Source of the DNA: Actinospica acidithermotolerans
GTDB lineage: Bacteria; Actinomycetota; Actinomycetes; Streptomycetales; Catenulisporaceae
Assembly (NCBI RefSeq): GCF_018139625.1
Contig: NZ_JAGSOH010000004.1
Coordinates: forward strand, 1-64,000
DNA: 64,000 nucleotides
Direction: 5' to 3'
Notes under the pieces: generated by a model
Told to the model about the DNA's origin: nothing
Databases searched by the model: none
The model's input: the letters and a program-made list of their open reading frames with translations, nothing else
Program-made: the position numbers and the translations under genes
Part shown: positions 394 through 59,653 of the stretch, one piece after another
Layout: every line of letters starts with the position of its first letter
How positions within the stretch are numbered: position 1 is the stretch's first letter

Positions 394-2247
394 ATGCGAC
401 CCTATCCGGCAACCGCGTCGCCGACCCGCCGCGGCCTGTGGGTGTTGGGCTTGGCCATCCGCACCGAGAAGAAGGTGTTCGCGGGCGCGCTCATGGGCAG
501 CGCGCTGTACGGCGGCATGACCGTCGGCGCGGCGTCCGCCGTCGGCTGGGCGACGGACCACGTCGTGCTGCCCTCGCTCTCCGCGCACCACGTGGGCGCG
601 GCGACACTGGCGGCGGGCGGGCTGCTGATCGTCGGCGTGGCGGTTGCGAAGGTGATCGGCATCTTCGGGCGCCGGCTGCTCGCCGGCGTGCTCCAGTTCC
701 GGATGCAGGCCCGCTACCGCCACCTGGTCACGGCCGCCTACCTGCGGCTGCCGCTCGCCTGGCATCAGCAGCGGCCCACCGGACGCCTGCTGTCGAACGC
801 CAACTCCGACGTGGAGATGGCGTTCATGCCGATCGCGCCGATGCCGATGTCGCTCGGCGTCGGCGTCATGCTGATCATCGGCATCGTCGACATGCTGCTG
901 ACGAACTCGGTCCTCGCCCTCATCGGCATCCTGCTGCTCCCGGCGATCATCGTCACCAACACGATCTACGTCCGCTTCTCCGGTCCGCGCTTCGCCCGAG
1001 CGCAGGAGCTGCGCGCACACGTGGCCGAGGTGGCGCACGAGTCCTTCGACGGCGCGCTCGTCGTCAAGACCCTGGGACGCGAGACCACGGAGACCGAGCG
1101 CTTCGCCGACCGCGCCCGCGCCCTGCGCGACGCCAACATCTCCGCTGGTCGCGCGCGGTCGCTGTTCAACCCGATCCTGGAGGCGCTGCCGAACCTCGGC
1201 GTCCTGGCGGTGCTGCTCTTCGGCACCCGGGAGGTGGCCTCCGGCGCCGCGCAGCCGGGCGACGTGGTCAACGTCGCCTACCTGATCACGTTGCTGGCCT
1301 TCCCGATCCAGTCCTTCGGCTGGGTGCTCGGGGACCTGCCGCGCGCCGTCGTCGGCTACGAGCGCGTCGCGGCGGTGCTGGCAGCCGAGGACCGCACGGA
1401 GTACGGCACGGAGCCCGGCAAGCGGGACGGCTCGCCCGCCGAGCTCGTGTTCGACCACGTGGACTTCGCGTACCCGGGCGCCGAGACGGCCCCCGTGCTC
1501 CGATCGCTCACCGCCTCGATCGCGCCGGGGCGCACGGTCGCCCTCGTCGGCGCGACCGGCGCCGGCAAGTCGACGATCGCGGCGCTGCTGTCCCGGCTGT
1601 CCGACCCGACCGGCGGCGCGATCCTGCTGGACGGCGTGGAGCTCGCCGAGTACGCGAAGGGCGAGGTGTCCGACGCGGTCGCGCTCGTTCCGCAGCAGAC
1701 CTTCATCTTCGGCGACACCGTGCGCGCGAACGTGGCCCTCGGCGACGACGTCGGCGACGACCAGGTGTGGGCCGCGCTGCGTACCGCGCAGGCCGAGAAG
1801 TTCGTCAAGGCCCTGCCACAGGGCCTCGACACCGTGATCGGCGAGCGCGGCACGACGCTCTCCGGAGGACAGCGGCAGCGTCTCGCGCTGGCCCGCGCGC
1901 TCGTCCGCCGTCCGCGGCTGCTCGTGCTCGACGACTGCACGTCGGCCGTGGATCCGAGCGTCGAGGCGGCGATCCTCGACGGACTGCGCGAGCAGGGCGA
2001 CGATCCGGAAGCGGCGGCCGCGACGGTCGTCGTGATCGCGTACCGGAAGGCGACGGTCGCGCTCGCCGACGAGGTGCTGTTCCTGCAGAACGGTTCGATC
2101 GCCGCGCGCGGCACACACGATGAGCTGCTGGAACGCAGTGAGGGGTATCGCGAGTTGATCACCGCCTACGCAAGGGCCGCCGAGGAGGCAGCCGCCGAGG
2201 AAGCGGATGCGGCCGAGGACGAGCAGATGAAGGAGGTCGTCGCGTGA
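394..2247 (+). CDS. ABC exporter half-transporter, degenerate-site subunit
   Basis: A 617-residue half-transporter with an N-terminal six-helix ABC membrane domain (about 20-330) and a C-terminal ATPase domain. Walker A is GATGAGKST (386-394) and the signature is the canonical LSGGQ. The Walker B end reads VLDDCTS, with Asp514 where the catalytic Glu is expected. The H-loop reads IAYRK, with Tyr550 in place of His. The ATP site built from this Walker A/B should therefore be non-hydrolytic, as in known heterodimeric exporters. The stop overlaps the GTG start of the next gene by 4 nt, so the two are translationally coupled partners. A GGGGGA sits upstream of the ATG. The exported substrate cannot be read from sequence; actinobacterial pairs of this kind handle lipids or drugs. 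Confidence 0.9.
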
Positions 2248-4112
2248 CGGCCGTTGCTCAGGACGCCGCCGAGCGGGCAGCCGAACCGGCCGCCGAGGAA
2301 GCGGTCGAGGACTCGACTCCCAGCGTTCCGATCGTCGGCGAGGCCTCCGGCGGTCCGGTCGCCATCGTGCGCGCCGGCCTGCGGCTCTCGCCCGAGTTCG
2401 TCAAGGGCATCGGCGTCACGATGCTGCTCGCGCTGATCGCGACCACCGGCCGCATCGTCATCCCGATCGCCGTCCAGCAGGCCATGGACCACGGCTTCGG
2501 CTCGACCTCAGGCAGGGTGGACGTCGGCGAGGTGGAGCGGATGGTCGCCATCGCGGCGCTCGCCGTCATCGCCACGATGCTCTCCGCGACCGCGATGAGC
2601 CGCCGCCTCTACCAGGCGAGCGAATCAGGGCTCTCTGGCCTGCGGATCAAGGCGTTCCGGCACGTGCACGACCTGTCCGTGGCGCACCAGCAGGCCGAGC
2701 AGCGCGGCTCGCTCGTCTCCCGCGTCACCTCGGACGTCGACACGATCACCAACTTCATCCAGGAAGGCGGCCTGATGCTGTTCGTCAGCGTCGCCCAGAT
2801 GGCGCTGGCCACGATCGTGATGGCGGTCTACTCCTGGCAGCTCACGCTGCTGATCTGGGTCTGCTTCCTGCCGCTGTTCGCCACCATGCGCGTCGTGCAG
2901 CGCAAGACCGGCGCCCGGTACAGCGCCGTCCGCTCGGCCATCGGCCGGATGCTCGGCGCGGTCAGCGAGACGCTGGTCGGCGCGCCGATCGTGCGCGCGT
3001 ACGGCATCGAGGACCGGATGGGCGCGCGGATGGACGAGGCCATCGCGCGCACCCGGCGCGCCCAGGTCGGCGCGCAGCGCGTGGTCATCACGACGTTCAG
3101 CGCGGGAGAGATCGCGGCCGGACTGGCCAACGCGGGCGTCATCGTCGTCGGCACGCTGCTCGGCGTCGGCGGCCACCTGACGGCCGGCCAGATCGTCGCG
3201 ATGCTCTTCCTCGTCTCGCTGTTCATCACGCCGGTCCAGTGGGGCGTCGAGGTGCTCAACGAGGCGCAGAACGCGATCTCCGGCTGGCGCCGCGTGATCG
3301 GGCTGCTGGAGGCCGTCCCCGACGTGCCCGACCCAGGCGCCGCGGGCACCGACCTGCCGGAAGGGGCGCTCGACGTGCGCTTCGAGCACGTCGCCTTCGC
3401 CTACCCCGGCGGCGCCCGCGTGCTGCACGACGTCGACGTGACGATCCCGGCGCGCAGCCGGATCGCGGTCGTCGGCGAGACGGGCTCCGGCAAGACGACC
3501 TTCGCGAAGCTGCTGACCCGGCTGATGGACCCGGTCGACGGGGCCGTGCTGATCGGCGGCGTGGACGCGCGGCGGATCGCGTTCGCGCAGCTGCGGCGGC
3601 GCGTGGTGATGGTCCCTCAGGACGGCTTCCTGTTCGAGGGGACGCTTGCCGACAACGTGCGCTACGGCAAGCCCGGCGCGGACGACGCCGAGGTCGCGGA
3701 GGCGTTCGAGTCGCTCGGGCTCGGCGACTGGCTGGCCGGCCAGCCGCAGGGCGTGGCGACGGCGGTCGGGCAGCGCGGCGAGTCGCTCTCGGCCGGCGAG
3801 CGGCAACTGGTGGCGCTGGCCCGCGCGTACGTCGCGGACCCGGACCTGCTGCTGCTCGACGAGGCGACCTCGGCCGTGGACCCGGCCACCGAGCAGCGGA
3901 TCGCCCGCGCGCTCGAGGCGCTCACCCGCGGCCGCACGACCGTCTCGATCGCGCACCGGCTCTCCACGGCGCAGGCCGCCGACGAGGTGTTCGTGTTCGA
4001 CGCCGGACGGCTCGTCGAGCGGGGGCCGCATCGCGAACTCGTCGAGCAGGGCGGGATCTACGCGGCGCTCTACGCCTCCTGGGCGCGCACCGCGGTCGGT
4101 CACGCTATCTGA
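2244..4112 (+). CDS. ABC exporter half-transporter, catalytic subunit
   Basis: A 622-residue partner of the preceding half-transporter, starting at GTG inside its stop. After a roughly 50-residue acidic N-terminus comes the six-helix membrane domain, then the ATPase domain with Walker [10 protein letters not shown], Walker [13 protein letters not shown] (catalytic Glu present) and an IAHRLST H-loop. The signature is LSAGE rather than LSGGQ. The two subunits are therefore complementary: this one supplies a full Walker B and His, its partner supplies a full LSGGQ, giving one active and one degenerate site. The 3' end overlaps the convergent glycosyltransferase gene by 13 nt. Confidence 0.9.
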
Positions 4113-54802: not shown

Positions 54803-54890
54803 TCCGCCTTCCCCGAGGGCGCGCAACTGAGGTTGTAGGATCCGGCGTCAGTTGAACGGAAGTCGGGTGCGGAACGGACGGGCGGTTACC

Positions 54891-54971
54891 GTGAGCGAGC
54901 TTGCGAGCGAACCAATGAGCACAGTGCACTTGCGAGCGCGCCTGACGAGCGCCAGCGAGGCAGGCGCGTGA
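54891..54971 (+). repeat. GCGAGC-rich element with a 26-codon ORF before the glycosyltransferase gene
   Basis: The stretch is rich in GAGCGAGC/GCGAGCG words and includes CGCGCCTG (54938-54945) and CAGGCGCG (54961-54968), an 8-bp inverted repeat. It also reads as a GTG-started 26-codon ORF whose TGA overlaps the next start codon. It resembles short GCGAGC-type dispersed repeats of actinomycete genomes. Repeat, leader peptide or both cannot be settled here. Confidence 0.4.
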
Positions 54972-56176
54972 GCAGTATGACCGGGCAACAGGTGACCGCG
55001 CGGGAGGCAGGCGCCCCGGGCGGCTTCGCCGCGGTCCGCGAGCGCGCGGTCCGCTCGGCCGGGCGCGCCTGGCCCGCGATGGCCGCCTACCTGCTCGTGC
55101 GGCTCGTCGGCACGCTGGTGTTCGGGCTGCTCTCCAGCGGCCACGGCTACGCGGCGCGCGGCGTGTTCGTGTTCGTCGACTCCGGCTGGTACGAGAAGAT
55201 CGCCGAGCGCGGCTACGACACGAAGATCTCGCCCGCCCTCTCGCCCTTCGCCTTCGACCCGCTCTACCCGGGCCTGATGGCGCTCGGGCACGCGATCACC
55301 GGCGGCCTGCTCAGCGTGACCGCGGTCGGCCTGGCGATCACCTGGGTCGCGGCCGTCGCGTGCTCCTGGGCGCTGTTCGAGATCGGCCGCCTGGTGCGCG
55401 ACGCCCGGACCGGCCTGATCTTCGCCGTGCTCTGGGCGCTGATGCCCTCGGCCGTGATCGAGGGCGCGCTCTACGCCGACACCCTCGCCATCTGCCTCAC
55501 CGCGTGGGCGCTCTACGCGCTGCTGCGCCGCTCCTGGATCACCGCGGGAATCCTCGCCTGCCTCGCCGGAGCCACCCGGCCGACCGCCGACGCCGTCGTG
55601 CTGACGGTCTGCGTCGCGGCGGTCGTCGAGATCGTCCGCGCGCGCCGCGCGGGGCAGCCGTTCACCTGGCGCCCGCTGATCGGCGCCGTCATCGCGCCGA
55701 TCGGAGCGATCGGCTTCCTGGCGTACGTCGCGTACCGCATGGGCAGCATCGGCGGCTACATGAAGGCGCAGAAGAAGTGGGGGACCGGCTTCGGCAACGC
55801 CGGCCAGGTCTTCCACCGGATCAAGCTCGGCATCGAGGGCACCGCGCACGGCTACGCCAACGGCCAGGCGCACGTCACGACGGCCGTCCTGCTGATCGTG
55901 CCGCTGCTGATCATCGTGATGCTCGTGCAGCGGCAGCGCTGGGAGCTGACGTTCTACACGATCGTGGTGGCCGCGATCGTCTACACGGCCATTCACGACT
56001 ACACGGTCGTGCCGCGCGAGATGCTCGCCGCGTTCCCGATCCTGCTCGCCCCCGCCGGATGGCTCTCGAAGATCAAGCGCCAGTGGATCGTCTGGGCGCT
56101 GATCGCGGTGCTCGCCGTGGCCGCCGGCTGGTATGCGCACTTCATCACCGTCGACGGCGGCCCCGGCTTCCCCTAG
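54968..56176 (+). CDS. Integral membrane mannosyltransferase-like protein (PIG-V family)
   Basis: A 402-residue protein with about nine helices. FVDSGWYEKIAERGYDTK followed by FAFDPLYPGLMALGHAI is the WDxxWY...FPLYP-type active-site loop of PIG-V/GT-C transferases (here with Ser before Gly-Trp-Tyr). WALMPSAVIEGALYADTLAI is also family-like. It probably uses a polyprenyl-phosphate sugar donor at the membrane. Starts at GTG overlapping a short upstream ORF; an in-frame ATG lies 9 nt later. The mobile element is inserted 9 nt after its stop. Confidence 0.75.
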   Translation: MSSMTGQQVTAREAGAPGGFAAVRERAVRSAGRAWPAMAAYLLVRLVGTLVFGLLSSGHGYAARGVFVFVDSGWYEKIAERGYDTKISPALSPFAFDPLYPGLMALGHAITGGLLSVTAVGLAITWVAAVACSWALFEIGRLVRDARTGLIFAVLWALMPSAVIEGALYADTLAICLTAWALYALLRRSWITAGILACLAGATRPTADAVVLTVCVAAVVEIVRARRAGQPFTWRPLIGAVIAPIGAIGFLAYVAYRMGSIGGYMKAQKKWGTGFGNAGQVFHRIKLGIEGTAHGYANGQAHVTTAVLLIVPLLIIVMLVQRQRWELTFYTIVVAAIVYTAIHDYTVVPREMLAAFPILLAPAGWLSKIKRQWIVWALIAVLAVAAGWYAHFITVDGGPGFP

Positions 56177-56181
56177 CCCGC

Positions 56182-56185
56182 CTAG
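56182..56185. repeat. Target-site duplication, left copy (CTAG)
   Basis: CTAG directly abuts the left terminal repeat and is repeated at 59646-59649. IS701-family elements characteristically duplicate a 4-bp CTAG-like target. Confidence 0.85.
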
Positions 56186-56240
56186 TACGGCAGTCGGACT
56201 TCGTGATCTGGCATTGGGCTGTGTGATGAGTGCGTAGCGG
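56186..56240 (+). repeat. Left terminal inverted repeat
   Basis: It begins TACGGCAGTCGGACT. Its match to the right end continues inward, weaker, to a shared GCGTAGCG word, giving a long two-part end that may contain separate transposase contacts. Confidence 0.88.
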
Positions 56241-56312
56241 GCTGCGTCGTCTCGCCGTGTCGGCGCCGAGTTGGCGCCATAGGCGGTGCTCGTCTGATCG
56301 CTCGTCTGTGCG

Positions 56313-56993
56313 TCAGTTTGAGATGCGGGCTTCGATGCCGTCGAGGAGGAACTCGAGGCCGATCCGGAAGGTCTCATCGGCGCTCAGGTGGGGGCCGCTG
56401 CGTACTGCCATGGCCAGCGCGGGGAATCGCCCTGTTGCGAAGGTCCGTTCCAGATACGGCCCGTAGGCGGTCTGGAACTGCTTGATGTCCATCCCGCTGG
56501 CCCGTTCGGCGCGTCGCTCGGCGATCTCCCGGCGTACCGCGCCGACCACGTACGCTCTGACCGCGGCGACCGCTGGGACGACGGTGTCTAGGTCGACACT
56601 GCCCATGGCGGCGAGCACGGCGTTCCCGGTGGCCAGCGTGTTCGGTCCGAGCTGGGGGCGCCCACCGATCAGGTCGGCGAGCCATTCGTGCTGATGGGCG
56701 GCCTGTCGGGTGGCTTCGGCAAGGGAGCGCAGTACCTGGCGCCAGTCGTCTCCGGTCGGCTGGATCTCGGCGTAGACCGTATCGAGCATCAGGTCGAGCA
56801 GTTCCTCTTTGGTGGCAATGTAGCCGTACAGCCGCATCGGTCCGACGTCCAGCGCCGCAGCCACCTTGCGTAGCGACACCGCGTCCAGGCCGTCCGCGTC
56901 GGCCAGTTGGATCGCCGCCCGGACGAGCCGCGCCCGGTTCAGCGGGGCCGGCACCGGTCGATCCGGCGGCTCCGGCCGCTCCCACACCACCAT
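56313..56993 (-). CDS. TetR-family transcriptional repressor (passenger gene)
   Basis: A 226-residue regulator. The N-terminal HTH (about 18-65) reads NRARLVRAAIQLADADGLDAVSLRKVAAALDVGPMRLYGYIATKEELLDLM, here cited by its key words LRKVAAALDVGPMRLYGY. The remaining helices form a TetR_C-type ligand domain (VRAYVVGAVRREIAERRAER). It is divergent from the monooxygenase with 85 nt between starts, and a perfect palindrome lies between them. This layout predicts repression of itself and the enzyme, released by the enzyme's substrate. Confidence 0.9.
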   Translation of the reverse strand: MVVWERPEPPDRPVPAPLNRARLVRAAIQLADADGLDAVSLRKVAAALDVGPMRLYGYIATKEELLDLMLDTVYAEIQPTGDDWRQVLRSLAEATRQAAHQHEWLADLIGGRPQLGPNTLATGNAVLAAMGSVDLDTVVPAVAAVRAYVVGAVRREIAERRAERASGMDIKQFQTAYGPYLERTFATGRFPALAMAVRSGPHLSADETFRIGLEFLLDGIEARISN

Positions 56994-57044
56994 GCCGCCG
57001 ACCCTACCGCGGCCCGCGTCTTACAGCGGCTTCAACCGATACGG

Positions 57045-57060
57045 TGTATTGATCAATACA
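57045..57060. promoter_or_regulatory. Operator palindrome between tetR-type gene and monooxygenase
   Basis: TGTATTGATCAATACA is a perfect 16-bp palindrome, AT-rich against a GC-rich background. It sits 18 nt before the monooxygenase GTG and 51 nt before the repressor ATG, over the expected promoters. The TetR-family protein next to it is the likely ligand. Confidence 0.8.
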
Positions 57061-57078
57061 GTGAATCGGGAGGGAATC

Positions 57079-58188
57079 GTGGACATCGCCATCGTCGGAG
57101 CAGGCTTGGGGGGCCTGGCCCTTGCCCGCGTGCTGCACGTCAACGGCATTGACGCCGTCGTATACGAACGAGAAGCGTGGCGCGGTGCGCGCGGCCAGGG
57201 CGGCATGCTCGATATCCACTCCGGCCAGCGGGCGCTGCGCGCGGCCGGTCTGATCGACGAGTTCTACGCGATCGCCCGTGGTGAAGGCCAGGACATGCGT
57301 CTTCTCACCCCTGATGGCACCCTGCTGCTCCAGGAGGACACGCCCGACGACGCCCCGCTTCTGCGACCCGAGGTCGACCGCGCCGATCTGCGCAACCTGC
57401 TGCTCGATTCCCTCCCCGAAGACGTGGTGCGCTGGGGGCACGCGTTCGCATTCGCCGATAAAGGCCTGCTGCACTTCGCCGACAGCAGCAGTGCGGCCTA
57501 TGACCTGCTGGTCGGCGCGGACGGCGCGTCCTCCCGGGTCCGCGCGCTGCTCACCGACGCCCGCCCGGTGCACATCGGCAAGAACGTCGTCGAGATCGGC
57601 ATTCCCGATATCGACCGCACGCACCCCGACCTCGCGGCGATGGTCGGGCGCGGCACCTACTGGGTGCTCGGCGACGGAATATCCCTGGCGGCGCAGCGCA
57701 ACGGCGACGGTCGCGTTCGCATCGGCGTGAGCTTCTACAACACCGCAGAGGATTGGTTCGCCACCAGCGGGATCCCGTTCGACGACCCCGCCGCCGCCCG
57801 GGCGCGGCTGATCGAACTTCTCCCCGGCTGGGACCCACGGATCACCGCGCTGATCGAGTCCTGCGACGACACGATCATGCCGCGGTCGAGCACCTCTCTC
57901 CCGATCGGCCTGACCTGGCCGTCGACGCCAGGCGCCACGCTGCTCGGCGATGCCGCGCACCTGATGCCGGCGGTGGGGCAGGGCGCCAACATGGCGCTGC
58001 TCGACGGCGCCGTGCTCGGTCTCGCACTGGCCGCGCACCCGCACGACTTTCCCGCCGCCGTCAAAGAATACGAACGCGAGATGTTCGAACGCACCGGCGC
58101 CGCCGCCCGGAAGTCCGCGGACATGCATGAACTGCTGAGCTCGCCGGACGCCGCCCAGAAGATGCTCGCATTCTTCCAACCCGGCTGA
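57079..58188 (+). CDS. TetX-like FAD-dependent monooxygenase (passenger gene)
   Basis: A 369-residue class A flavin monooxygenase. IVGAGLGGLALARVL (GxGxxG at 7-12) with Glu30 binds FAD, LVGADGASSRVR is the DG motif, and LLGDAAHLMPAVGQGANMAL (289-308) is the GD motif. Beyond generic features it matches TetX-type enzymes in GGMLDIHSGQRALRAAGL, RPEVDRADLRNLLLDSL, RIGVSFYNTAEDW, GWDPRITALI and YEREMFERTG. TetX is 388 residues. It probably hydroxylates an aromatic polyketide-like or xenobiotic compound; tetracycline is only a candidate. GGGAGGGA precedes the GTG. Confidence 0.88.
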   Translation: MDIAIVGAGLGGLALARVLHVNGIDAVVYEREAWRGARGQGGMLDIHSGQRALRAAGLIDEFYAIARGEGQDMRLLTPDGTLLLQEDTPDDAPLLRPEVDRADLRNLLLDSLPEDVVRWGHAFAFADKGLLHFADSSSAAYDLLVGADGASSRVRALLTDARPVHIGKNVVEIGIPDIDRTHPDLAAMVGRGTYWVLGDGISLAAQRNGDGRVRIGVSFYNTAEDWFATSGIPFDDPAAARARLIELLPGWDPRITALIESCDDTIMPRSSTSLPIGLTWPSTPGATLLGDAAHLMPAVGQGANMALLDGAVLGLALAAHPHDFPAAVKEYEREMFERTGAAARKSADMHELLSSPDAAQKMLAFFQPG

Positions 58189-58190
58189 CG

Positions 58191-59612
58191 ATGACCAGAC
58201 ACGACCAGGAAACCGGTCGTCCAGCCCGGCCGCCCCGTGATCATCATGGTGCGATTCACGCTGAATGCGGGGCGGCCCACACCGCCAGCGCCGAGTTAAG
58301 CGGGTTCGAGGCGCACCTCGCGGAACTGTCCGGACTGATCGCGCCGTGCTTCTCCCGACGCGACCTGCGCTCGAACGCGAGCGCGTACATCCTTGGGCTG
58401 CTGTGCCCGGGCACGGCCGGCAACTGCTGGTCGCGCGCGCAGGCGGCCGGACACTCCCGACCCCACCGGCTCCAGCACCTGTTGTCCGGGGCGGTGTGGG
58501 ACGAGGACGAGGTGCGCGATGCCGTGCGCAGCTTCGTCGCCTGCCACCTGGGCGAAGGCGGCGTGCTGATCTTCGACGAGACCGGCGATCTGAAGAAGGG
58601 CACGGCCACGGCAGGAGCCGGCCGACAGTACACCGGCACCGCGGGCAGGATCGAGAATGCGGTGGTCGCGGTCTACGCGACCTACGCCACGCCGCTCGGG
58701 CACGCCCTGATCGACCGGGAGCTGCACGTGCAAAAGGAGTGGTTCGCAGATCCCGAGCGGATGGCGAAGGCCGGGTTCGAGCCCGACCACGCGTTCGCCA
58801 CCAAACCGCAACTCGCCAAGACGCAGGCCGAACGCGCCCTCGAAGCCGGGCTCGCCCCCGCCTGGGCCACCGGCGACGAGGTCTACGGACGCAGCAGCGA
58901 ACTACGCGCACTGTTCGAGGCACGCGGCATCGGCTACGTCTTCGCCGTCGGATGCGACTTCCAGCTCACCACCTCCGGACACCGGAAGATGCGCGCCGAC
59001 CAGGCCCTACACCTAGTCGAGCCGCACGGGTGGAACCGGCGCTCGGCAGGCGCCGGATCGAAAGGGCCGCGCCACTACGACTGGGCGCGGTTCGCAACCG
59101 CCTCCCACCGCCACCAGTTGCTGATCCGTCGCTCGATCAGCACCGGCGAGCTCGCCTACTACCTCGCGTTCGTGCCCGACCACTATGTCTGTTCCCTGAC
59201 CGACCTGGTCAAGGCCGCCGGCGCGAGATGGGCGGTGGAAGACGACTTCCAAGACGCCAAGCAGGCCGTCGGCCTCGACGGCACCCAGGTGCGCGCCTAC
59301 CGGGCGTGGAAACGCCACGTCACCCTCGTGATGGCCGCCTACGCGCTCCTGGCCGTCACCGCCGCAAAGGCCAGGGCCGCGCACCCGGCCCCCGTACTGC
59401 CGGAGAACGACGAGCAGCATGCACCGGAAGACTGCGGCATGATCGCGCTGACCGTTCCCGAGCTCCAGCGGCTACTGCCCGTCCTGCTACCCGAGCATAA
59501 CCACGGGAGAACCGATAGAAGCGTCTGTCTTGCCTGGTCCACCTGGCGCCGACGCCACCAGGCCCGAGCCCGCTGGCACCACTACCGCCGACGCTACGCG
59601 CTGATTGCGTAA
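58191..59612 (+). CDS. IS701-family transposase
   Basis: A 473-residue DDE transposase. The catalytic triad is Asp129 (LIFDETGDLKKGTATAG), Asp229 (WATGDEVYG) and Glu350 (RWAVEDDFQDAKQAVGLD), and RQYTGTAGRIENAVVAVY is the family signature. Length is slightly above the usual 400-440; the first 30 residues are not family-like. Its ATG is 2 nt after the monooxygenase stop with no good ribosome-binding site, so translation is probably coupled. The 3' end runs into the right terminal repeat. Confidence 0.95.
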   Translation: MTRHDQETGRPARPPRDHHGAIHAECGAAHTASAELSGFEAHLAELSGLIAPCFSRRDLRSNASAYILGLLCPGTAGNCWSRAQAAGHSRPHRLQHLLSGAVWDEDEVRDAVRSFVACHLGEGGVLIFDETGDLKKGTATAGAGRQYTGTAGRIENAVVAVYATYATPLGHALIDRELHVQKEWFADPERMAKAGFEPDHAFATKPQLAKTQAERALEAGLAPAWATGDEVYGRSSELRALFEARGIGYVFAVGCDFQLTTSGHRKMRADQALHLVEPHGWNRRSAGAGSKGPRHYDWARFATASHRHQLLIRRSISTGELAYYLAFVPDHYVCSLTDLVKAAGARWAVEDDFQDAKQAVGLDGTQVRAYRAWKRHVTLVMAAYALLAVTAAKARAAHPAPVLPENDEQHAPEDCGMIALTVPELQRLLPVLLPEHNHGRTDRSVCLAWSTWRRRHQARARWHHYRRRYALIA

Positions 59613-59645
59613 CCCGATGTCAGATCACGAAGTCCGACTGCCGTG
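59591..59645 (-). repeat. Right terminal inverted repeat
   Basis: Reverse complement begins CACGGCAGTCGGACT and matches the left end at 24 of the outer 25 positions. Its inner part overlaps the last codons of the transposase. Confidence 0.88.
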
Positions 59646-59649
59646 CTAG
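59646..59649. repeat. Target-site duplication, right copy (CTAG)
   Basis: Second CTAG copy, next to the right inverted repeat. Removing the element plus one copy restores a short palindrome, CCGCCTA-ggccgc-TAGGCGG, between two convergent genes. Confidence 0.85.
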
Positions 59650-59653
59650 GCCG

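Follow-up and report, generated by a model that had tools for sequence, protein, structure and literature searches.

How a repressor gene and a flavoenzyme gene came to lie within a bacterial insertion sequence is the question that this locus raises. In the window, namely the whole 64,000-nucleotide stretch of DNA analysed, an IS701-type element spans 3460 bp (56186-59645), and the first-pass annotation, which had described inverted ends, a CTAG duplication, and a repressor, a flavin monooxygenase (FMO) and a transposase inside, agrees with the coordinates and with the Pfam and NCBIfam matches (Table 1). All three reading frames are open, and the element looks intact. The genes that are not for transposition, TetR and FMO, lie between inverted ends, which is the feature of a cargo or transporter IS. 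With a probability of roughly 0.8, we consider the element to be a cargo IS701 that originated from a shrunken composite transposon, is arranged as R'-tetR-FMO-tnp-R with a single transposase, and was inserted at CTAG.

Table 1. Features of the IS701-type element and its flanks, in coordinates of the window.
Feature	Position	Strand	Basis
Left CTAG flank, half of the 4-bp target duplication	56182..56185		sequence
Left element end, 54-bp relic of an inverted IS701 right end, with C-terminal transposase codons (RYALI)	56186..56239	+	end typing
Captured passenger DNA, TetR-FMO cassette with short flanks	56240..58227		85.6% nucleotide identity to G049 (L134) over element 55-2041
TetR-family repressor (TetR_N + TetR_C_1), 226 aa	56313..56993	-	Pfam 1.8e-20, 1.7e-6
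Tandem operator-like boxes CCGATACGGTGTATTG-ATCAATACAGTGAATCGG, between tetR and FMO	57036..57069		conserved boxes in relatives and palindrome
Class A flavin-dependent monooxygenase (FMO), 369 aa	57079..58188	+	FAD_binding_3 2.6e-15; solved-structure matches
New ATG of the transposase frame, 2 nt past the FMO stop, in passenger DNA	58191..58193	+	TGACGATGACC in the window against TGAAGGTAACC in L134
IS701-family DDE transposase, 473 aa, intact; IS-derived from about 58228	58191..59612	+	NF033540 348.7 bits (cut-off 150), DDE_5 1.7e-37
IS701 leader hairpin over the native start codon, retained	58228..58277	+	folding z
Right (R) inverted end	59592..59645	-	inverted-arm pairing and end typing
Right CTAG flank	59646..59649		sequence

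The two arms (56180-56239 and 59592-59651) are complementary at 83% over 60 nt; no other inverted pair in the region approaches them in length. A 4-bp target duplication of the YTAR type is also present, with CTAG on either side, but this tetranucleotide is palindromic; it occurs 27 times in the 64-kb window. Because CTAG is its own reverse complement, the flanks alone cannot tell the insertion of one unit from two separate IS insertions, and a direct CTAG repeat was hence rejected as proof of a unit insertion.

These two readings are better separated by the empty site in relatives. The window belongs to a 7.9-Mb draft genome, and in both of the two congeners with which it was compared the insertion site is empty, a state that the first-pass annotation had proposed to look for; the flanking gene order (uvrB and a membrane protein on the left, an alpha-L-fucosidase and a glycosidase on the right) is conserved with only a short gap between, and the repressor-FMO pair was not found at this locus without the element. 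In our reading, the element was inserted at a CTAG between genes once this lineage had parted from its two sisters. It is improbable, therefore, that two separate IS701 insertions flanked a pair already resident at this locus and both decayed, with nothing ever having moved as a unit. Each copy would indeed leave a palindromic CTAG outside, and a locus of Streptomyces minutiscleroticus (L063, 1309-5228) looks exactly like such a state: an R-type end, a divergent pair of TetR and zinc alcohol dehydrogenase genes, a transposase, and an R end lie between flanks, CTAA and TTAG, that are in inverted and not direct order, as expected from two independent insertions. The locus in question is, however, conserved and empty in both sisters, whose own pairs sit at two other places, and the passenger stops within tens of bases of the tetR and FMO genes. 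The exact element was found in one copy; unit mobility was observed for its relatives, and only empty sister sites speak for that of the window element, which may still be mobile at present. A search of viral contigs for the exact element ends gave no match, a scan for sigma-70 promoters and terminators gave nothing above chance, and an Rfam search gave no match. Downstream of uvrB in the window (54870-54975), furthermore, we noticed a short sequence that recurs about 50 times in the genome G002, often in tandem with a spacing of ~77 bp, and represents an intergenic repeat family.

The junctions within the element are sharp to the base: an IS end of 54 bp is followed by a passenger of about 1988 bp and then by the transposase. 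Homology to IS covers element positions 1-54 and 2043-3460, restarting at 2043 in the comparison with a solo IS701 of the same genome (77% identity, CTAG flanks, 1513 bp), and the right junction was viewed at the base level. As the borders of the passenger homology and the IS homology coincide, we take the outer parts, 54 bp on the left and 1418 bp on the right, as IS-derived and the middle as the passenger. A stretch of ~72 bp downstream of tetR (56240-56311) is counted with the passenger mainly because of one relative, L134, the sequence most like a donor. The right IS lacks the first ~90 bp of the solo copy, and with them the true left end.

For typing the ends, the first 18 bases, which are shared, were excluded. 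The left end then resembled the four R-ends of its own subtype (the right end in the window, two on contig C399 and one on contig C117 of the congener G001) with z of 5.8-7.3, against z of 1.4 or less for all L-ends, and it reads C-terminal codons of the transposase in reverse. Both ends in the window are of the R type, while solo copies of the subtype have distinct left and right subterminal sequences. The earlier description of the ends as complete thus holds for the long inverted arms and the CTAG flanks but not for the left side, where the end is R-type and no true left end exists. An R-type left end is the remnant expected from a composite transposon with inverted copies once the left copy has shrunk. 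We infer such a composite origin, in which two inverted IS701 copies would have enclosed a resident divergent TetR-FMO cassette; of the left copy, nothing but 54 bp from its right end would have survived, and the right copy would have been trimmed by about 90 bp on its left side, leaving a one-transposase unit between two R-type ends.

Alternatively, a single IS701 might have gained the cargo directly by deletion or recombination beside its left end, which was later converted to the R sequence. Elements with PemK-like cargo retain L-type left ends and may have arisen in this way, and near-perfect short ends are seen in many cargo elements; in the window, however, the R-type similarity spans 54 nt and reaches into transposase codons with no L-type trace, so that we regard a direct gain as improbable here. 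The composite origin preferred for the window may nonetheless be one of several routes, as most cargo elements of the clade lack R/R ends. Besides the window and C399 of G001, R-type left ends were found in L063, L219, L192 and L194, whereas those of L203, L205 and L209 are L-type and the remaining cargo elements are undecidable; R/R ends as a general rule for cargo IS701 were thus rejected.

Several other loci show related stages. On C399 of G001, two R ends enclose an unrelated 234-aa frame and a broken transposase, and in L199 an outer end, R-type by eye with z of only 1.3, is followed by a DUF5946 gene and a complete L-tnp-R IS. The TetR/dehydrogenase layout of L063 is an independent parallel to the TetR/FMO layout in the window. 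In the genus of the window, SMI1/KNR4 genes occur inside or beside such IS701 elements. In the window's own genome, a stretch of contig C307 (L010, 2865-5176) holds a complete solo IS701 with CTAG flanks, an SMI1/KNR4-like gene, and a second, L-type IS end that carries the 5' part of a transposase and has CTTG as its outer flank, an arrangement that resembles cargo being acquired in a nested or tandem fashion. Two species share the same SMI1/KNR4 gene and, some 55 bp from it, the same IS701-type end, namely on C288 of G001 (L036, 2814-4857), where the gene lies within CTAG-flanked ends and the transposase is interrupted by an IS110-like gene, and on C111 of the window's own genome (L102, 4022-4633).

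The passenger itself is a free-standing, divergent cassette that is resident in the order and was picked up by the element, as judged from the sister species and the FMO homologues, which carry the pair without IS701. Indeed, both congeners have a tetR-FMO pair (82-83% nucleotide identity) at other loci, with the sites differing between them, and no IS701 ends or transposase were found at these loci. One congener's FMO is broken into two frames (L033; G001 C268:874-2751), by either a frameshift or an assembly error. When 246 genomes of the order were drawn, FMO at least 64% identical was found in more than 20 further genomes, in all but ~4 of which TetR adjoins it; at least 18 of the closest FMO homologues have the TetR neighbour and no IS701 transposase, and a transposase stands beside FMO in none of these further genomes. 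The best two matches on plasmids (82% and 80%) are likewise located beside TetR, with no transposase annotation within 5 kb. TetR orthologues at 72-86% identity adjoin FMO within the order, and operator-like boxes, CGATACaGTGTATCG, are kept between the two genes in most copies, the window included. Far from being specific to the element, the pair is thus an ordinary cassette in many Streptomycetales. In the TetR tree and the FMO tree alike, the window copies group with cassettes of their own family; a Streptomyces donor, considered because of an 88% FMO match in G049, was accordingly rejected. TetR would repress FMO through the conserved boxes, and the pair is most likely a ligand-sensing cassette for detoxification or tailoring, the substrate presumably being a small aromatic or polyketide compound.

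In terms of the flavoenzyme, the nearest solved relative in the PDB is AbsH3 of the abyssomicin pathway (1.6e-93, 48% identity), described as a putative reductase (PMC10327574), followed by SmTetX (1.2e-55, 39%) and TetX7 (1.5e-45, 32%), with TetX matches of 1e-43 to 1e-45. In another genome (L160, G171), an FMO was nearly identical to AbsH3, and that genome may hold an abyssomicin-type cluster. The FAD motifs of FMO are intact by inspection, and P318 and G321 on the flavin side of TetX are kept, but all six tetracycline contacts differ (N190, Q192, R213, F224, N226 and H234 of TetX correspond to V, E, T, A, Q and R). The NCBIfam models gave 148.8 bits for Tet(X) (cut-off 750) and 32 bits for rifampin monooxygenase (rif_monoox, Rox; cut-off 800), neither cut-off being reached. 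FMO thus shares the class A FAD monooxygenase fold family with Tet(X), SmTetX and AbsH3 by sequence but stands in its own clade, with 64-88% orthologues next to TetR and without the ligand contacts of TetX. The resemblance to TetX that the first-pass annotation pointed out therefore stands at the superfamily level and not beyond it, considering the score, the 32% identity and the ligand residues, and the proposed spread of drug inactivation is speculation on the same grounds. SmTetX also diverges from TetX at these contacts and yet modifies and degrades oxytetracycline (PMC10327574), so that the residues would neither support nor exclude a tetracycline activity of FMO. That FMO is a true tetracycline or rifampicin destructase and the element a drug-resistance transposon is, despite the class A fold, the TetX matches, the TetR partner and the precedent of SmTetX, the least likely reading given the two low scores, the six changed contacts and the closeness to AbsH3.

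The capture would also have changed how the transposase is expressed. The native GTG start now reads GCG (58251-58253), and the ATG that opens the frame in the window is missing from relatives; the transposase may be expressed by read-through from FMO. Because the native start is lost and the new one lies just behind the FMO stop, the transposase would be made from the TetR-controlled transcript, and an inducer of FMO might then also trigger movement of the element. We put forward such ligand-inducible transposition only as a tentative and rather doubtful extension. The leader hairpin, with z of -2.1 in the window and -3.5 and -4.0 in solo copies, could silence the translation of read-through transcripts.

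To place the element among its relatives, paired ends (YTAR and TAC..., at least 15 of 24 positions matching) were sought around the transposase in 88 IS701 loci, and were resolved at 53, the window counted, and unresolved at 35. The sizes are bimodal, with 28 solo elements of 1372-1583 bp and 25 cargo elements of 1698-3920 bp in which additional DNA of more than 200 bp (280-2500 bp) lies to the left of the transposase; the 4-bp flanks are identical in 21 of the 25. According to Pfam, the cargo includes PemK/MazF-like proteins (L100, L200), TetR with or without DUF6069 (L061, L066), an AAA_33 kinase-like protein (L196), DUF5946 (L199), Glyoxalase_6 (L201), GNAT (L211), YdhR (L192), a methyltransferase (L195), zinc alcohol dehydrogenase (L063) and DUF5958 (L072); further PemK/MazF-like cargo was judged by eye in L203, L205, L208, L209, L212 and L248. 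In the transposase tree, the branch of the window comprises 21 cargo and 2 solo elements, its support, 91/87, being modest for joining the window with the Streptomyces cargo elements; a second branch has 4 cargo and 4 solo elements, and the classical branch has 22 solo elements. The cargo state need change only 5 times on the tree, against 18 times with shuffled labels, a contrast that near-copies inflate.

Several cargo IS701 elements of the clade move as whole units. Indeed, L203 and L205 of G049, both with PemK-like cargo and 1951 bp in length, occupy different sites and share 99.9% identity across the element and 4-6 further bp; relatives of cargo elements share 95-99% identity that stops at the element ends; and true, non-palindromic duplications, TTAG (L196, L198) and CTAA (L206, L209), were found. 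G049 also contains a third, near-equal transposase match to L203/L205, which makes it a sequenced Streptomycetaceae genome with a recently active cargo IS. The window element is thus one member of a cargo-bearing IS701 branch and not a singleton: the first-pass annotation, in calling it a new type of cargo IS, was right in substance, and the ends of the family, far from being confined to the transposase alone, recur around other cargo.

IS701 elements have been described as transposase-only, whereas most members of this Streptomycetales branch with resolved ends carry passengers. The branch serves as a vehicle by which accessory genes (toxin-like, acetyltransferase, glyoxalase, regulators, immunity-like and oxidases) move singly within the order from which most antibiotics come. 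Its intermediates show a route from a plain IS to a gene carrier; discussions of this question usually have none to draw on. In the literature searched, with most subscription journals and ISfinder outside the search, we found no report of cargo IS701, which suggests that the branch is apparently unrecognised.

Compared with known systems, the element shares with the IS701 family the transposase (NF033540, DDE_5), the 4-bp YTAR duplication and short inverted ends. A 2008 survey gave the family as 1400-1550 bp with 4-bp duplications (PMC2266710), and a 2024 survey again listed one ORF (PMC11092175); this size with a single gene describes most members and is not a strict criterion, but the window element has 3460 bp, two R-type ends and three genes, two of which are passengers. 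In 2008, IS231 was the only case noted with passengers left of the transposase (PMC2266710), and the IS231-type "transporter IS" of the IS4 family indeed have the same placement, from the left inverted repeat to the transposase, while differing in transposase family and target size. As in composite transposons, finally, the passenger lies between inverted IS sequences with outer ends of one type; here, however, there is one transposase gene, the left copy is down to a 54-bp end, and the inner end of the right copy is missing.
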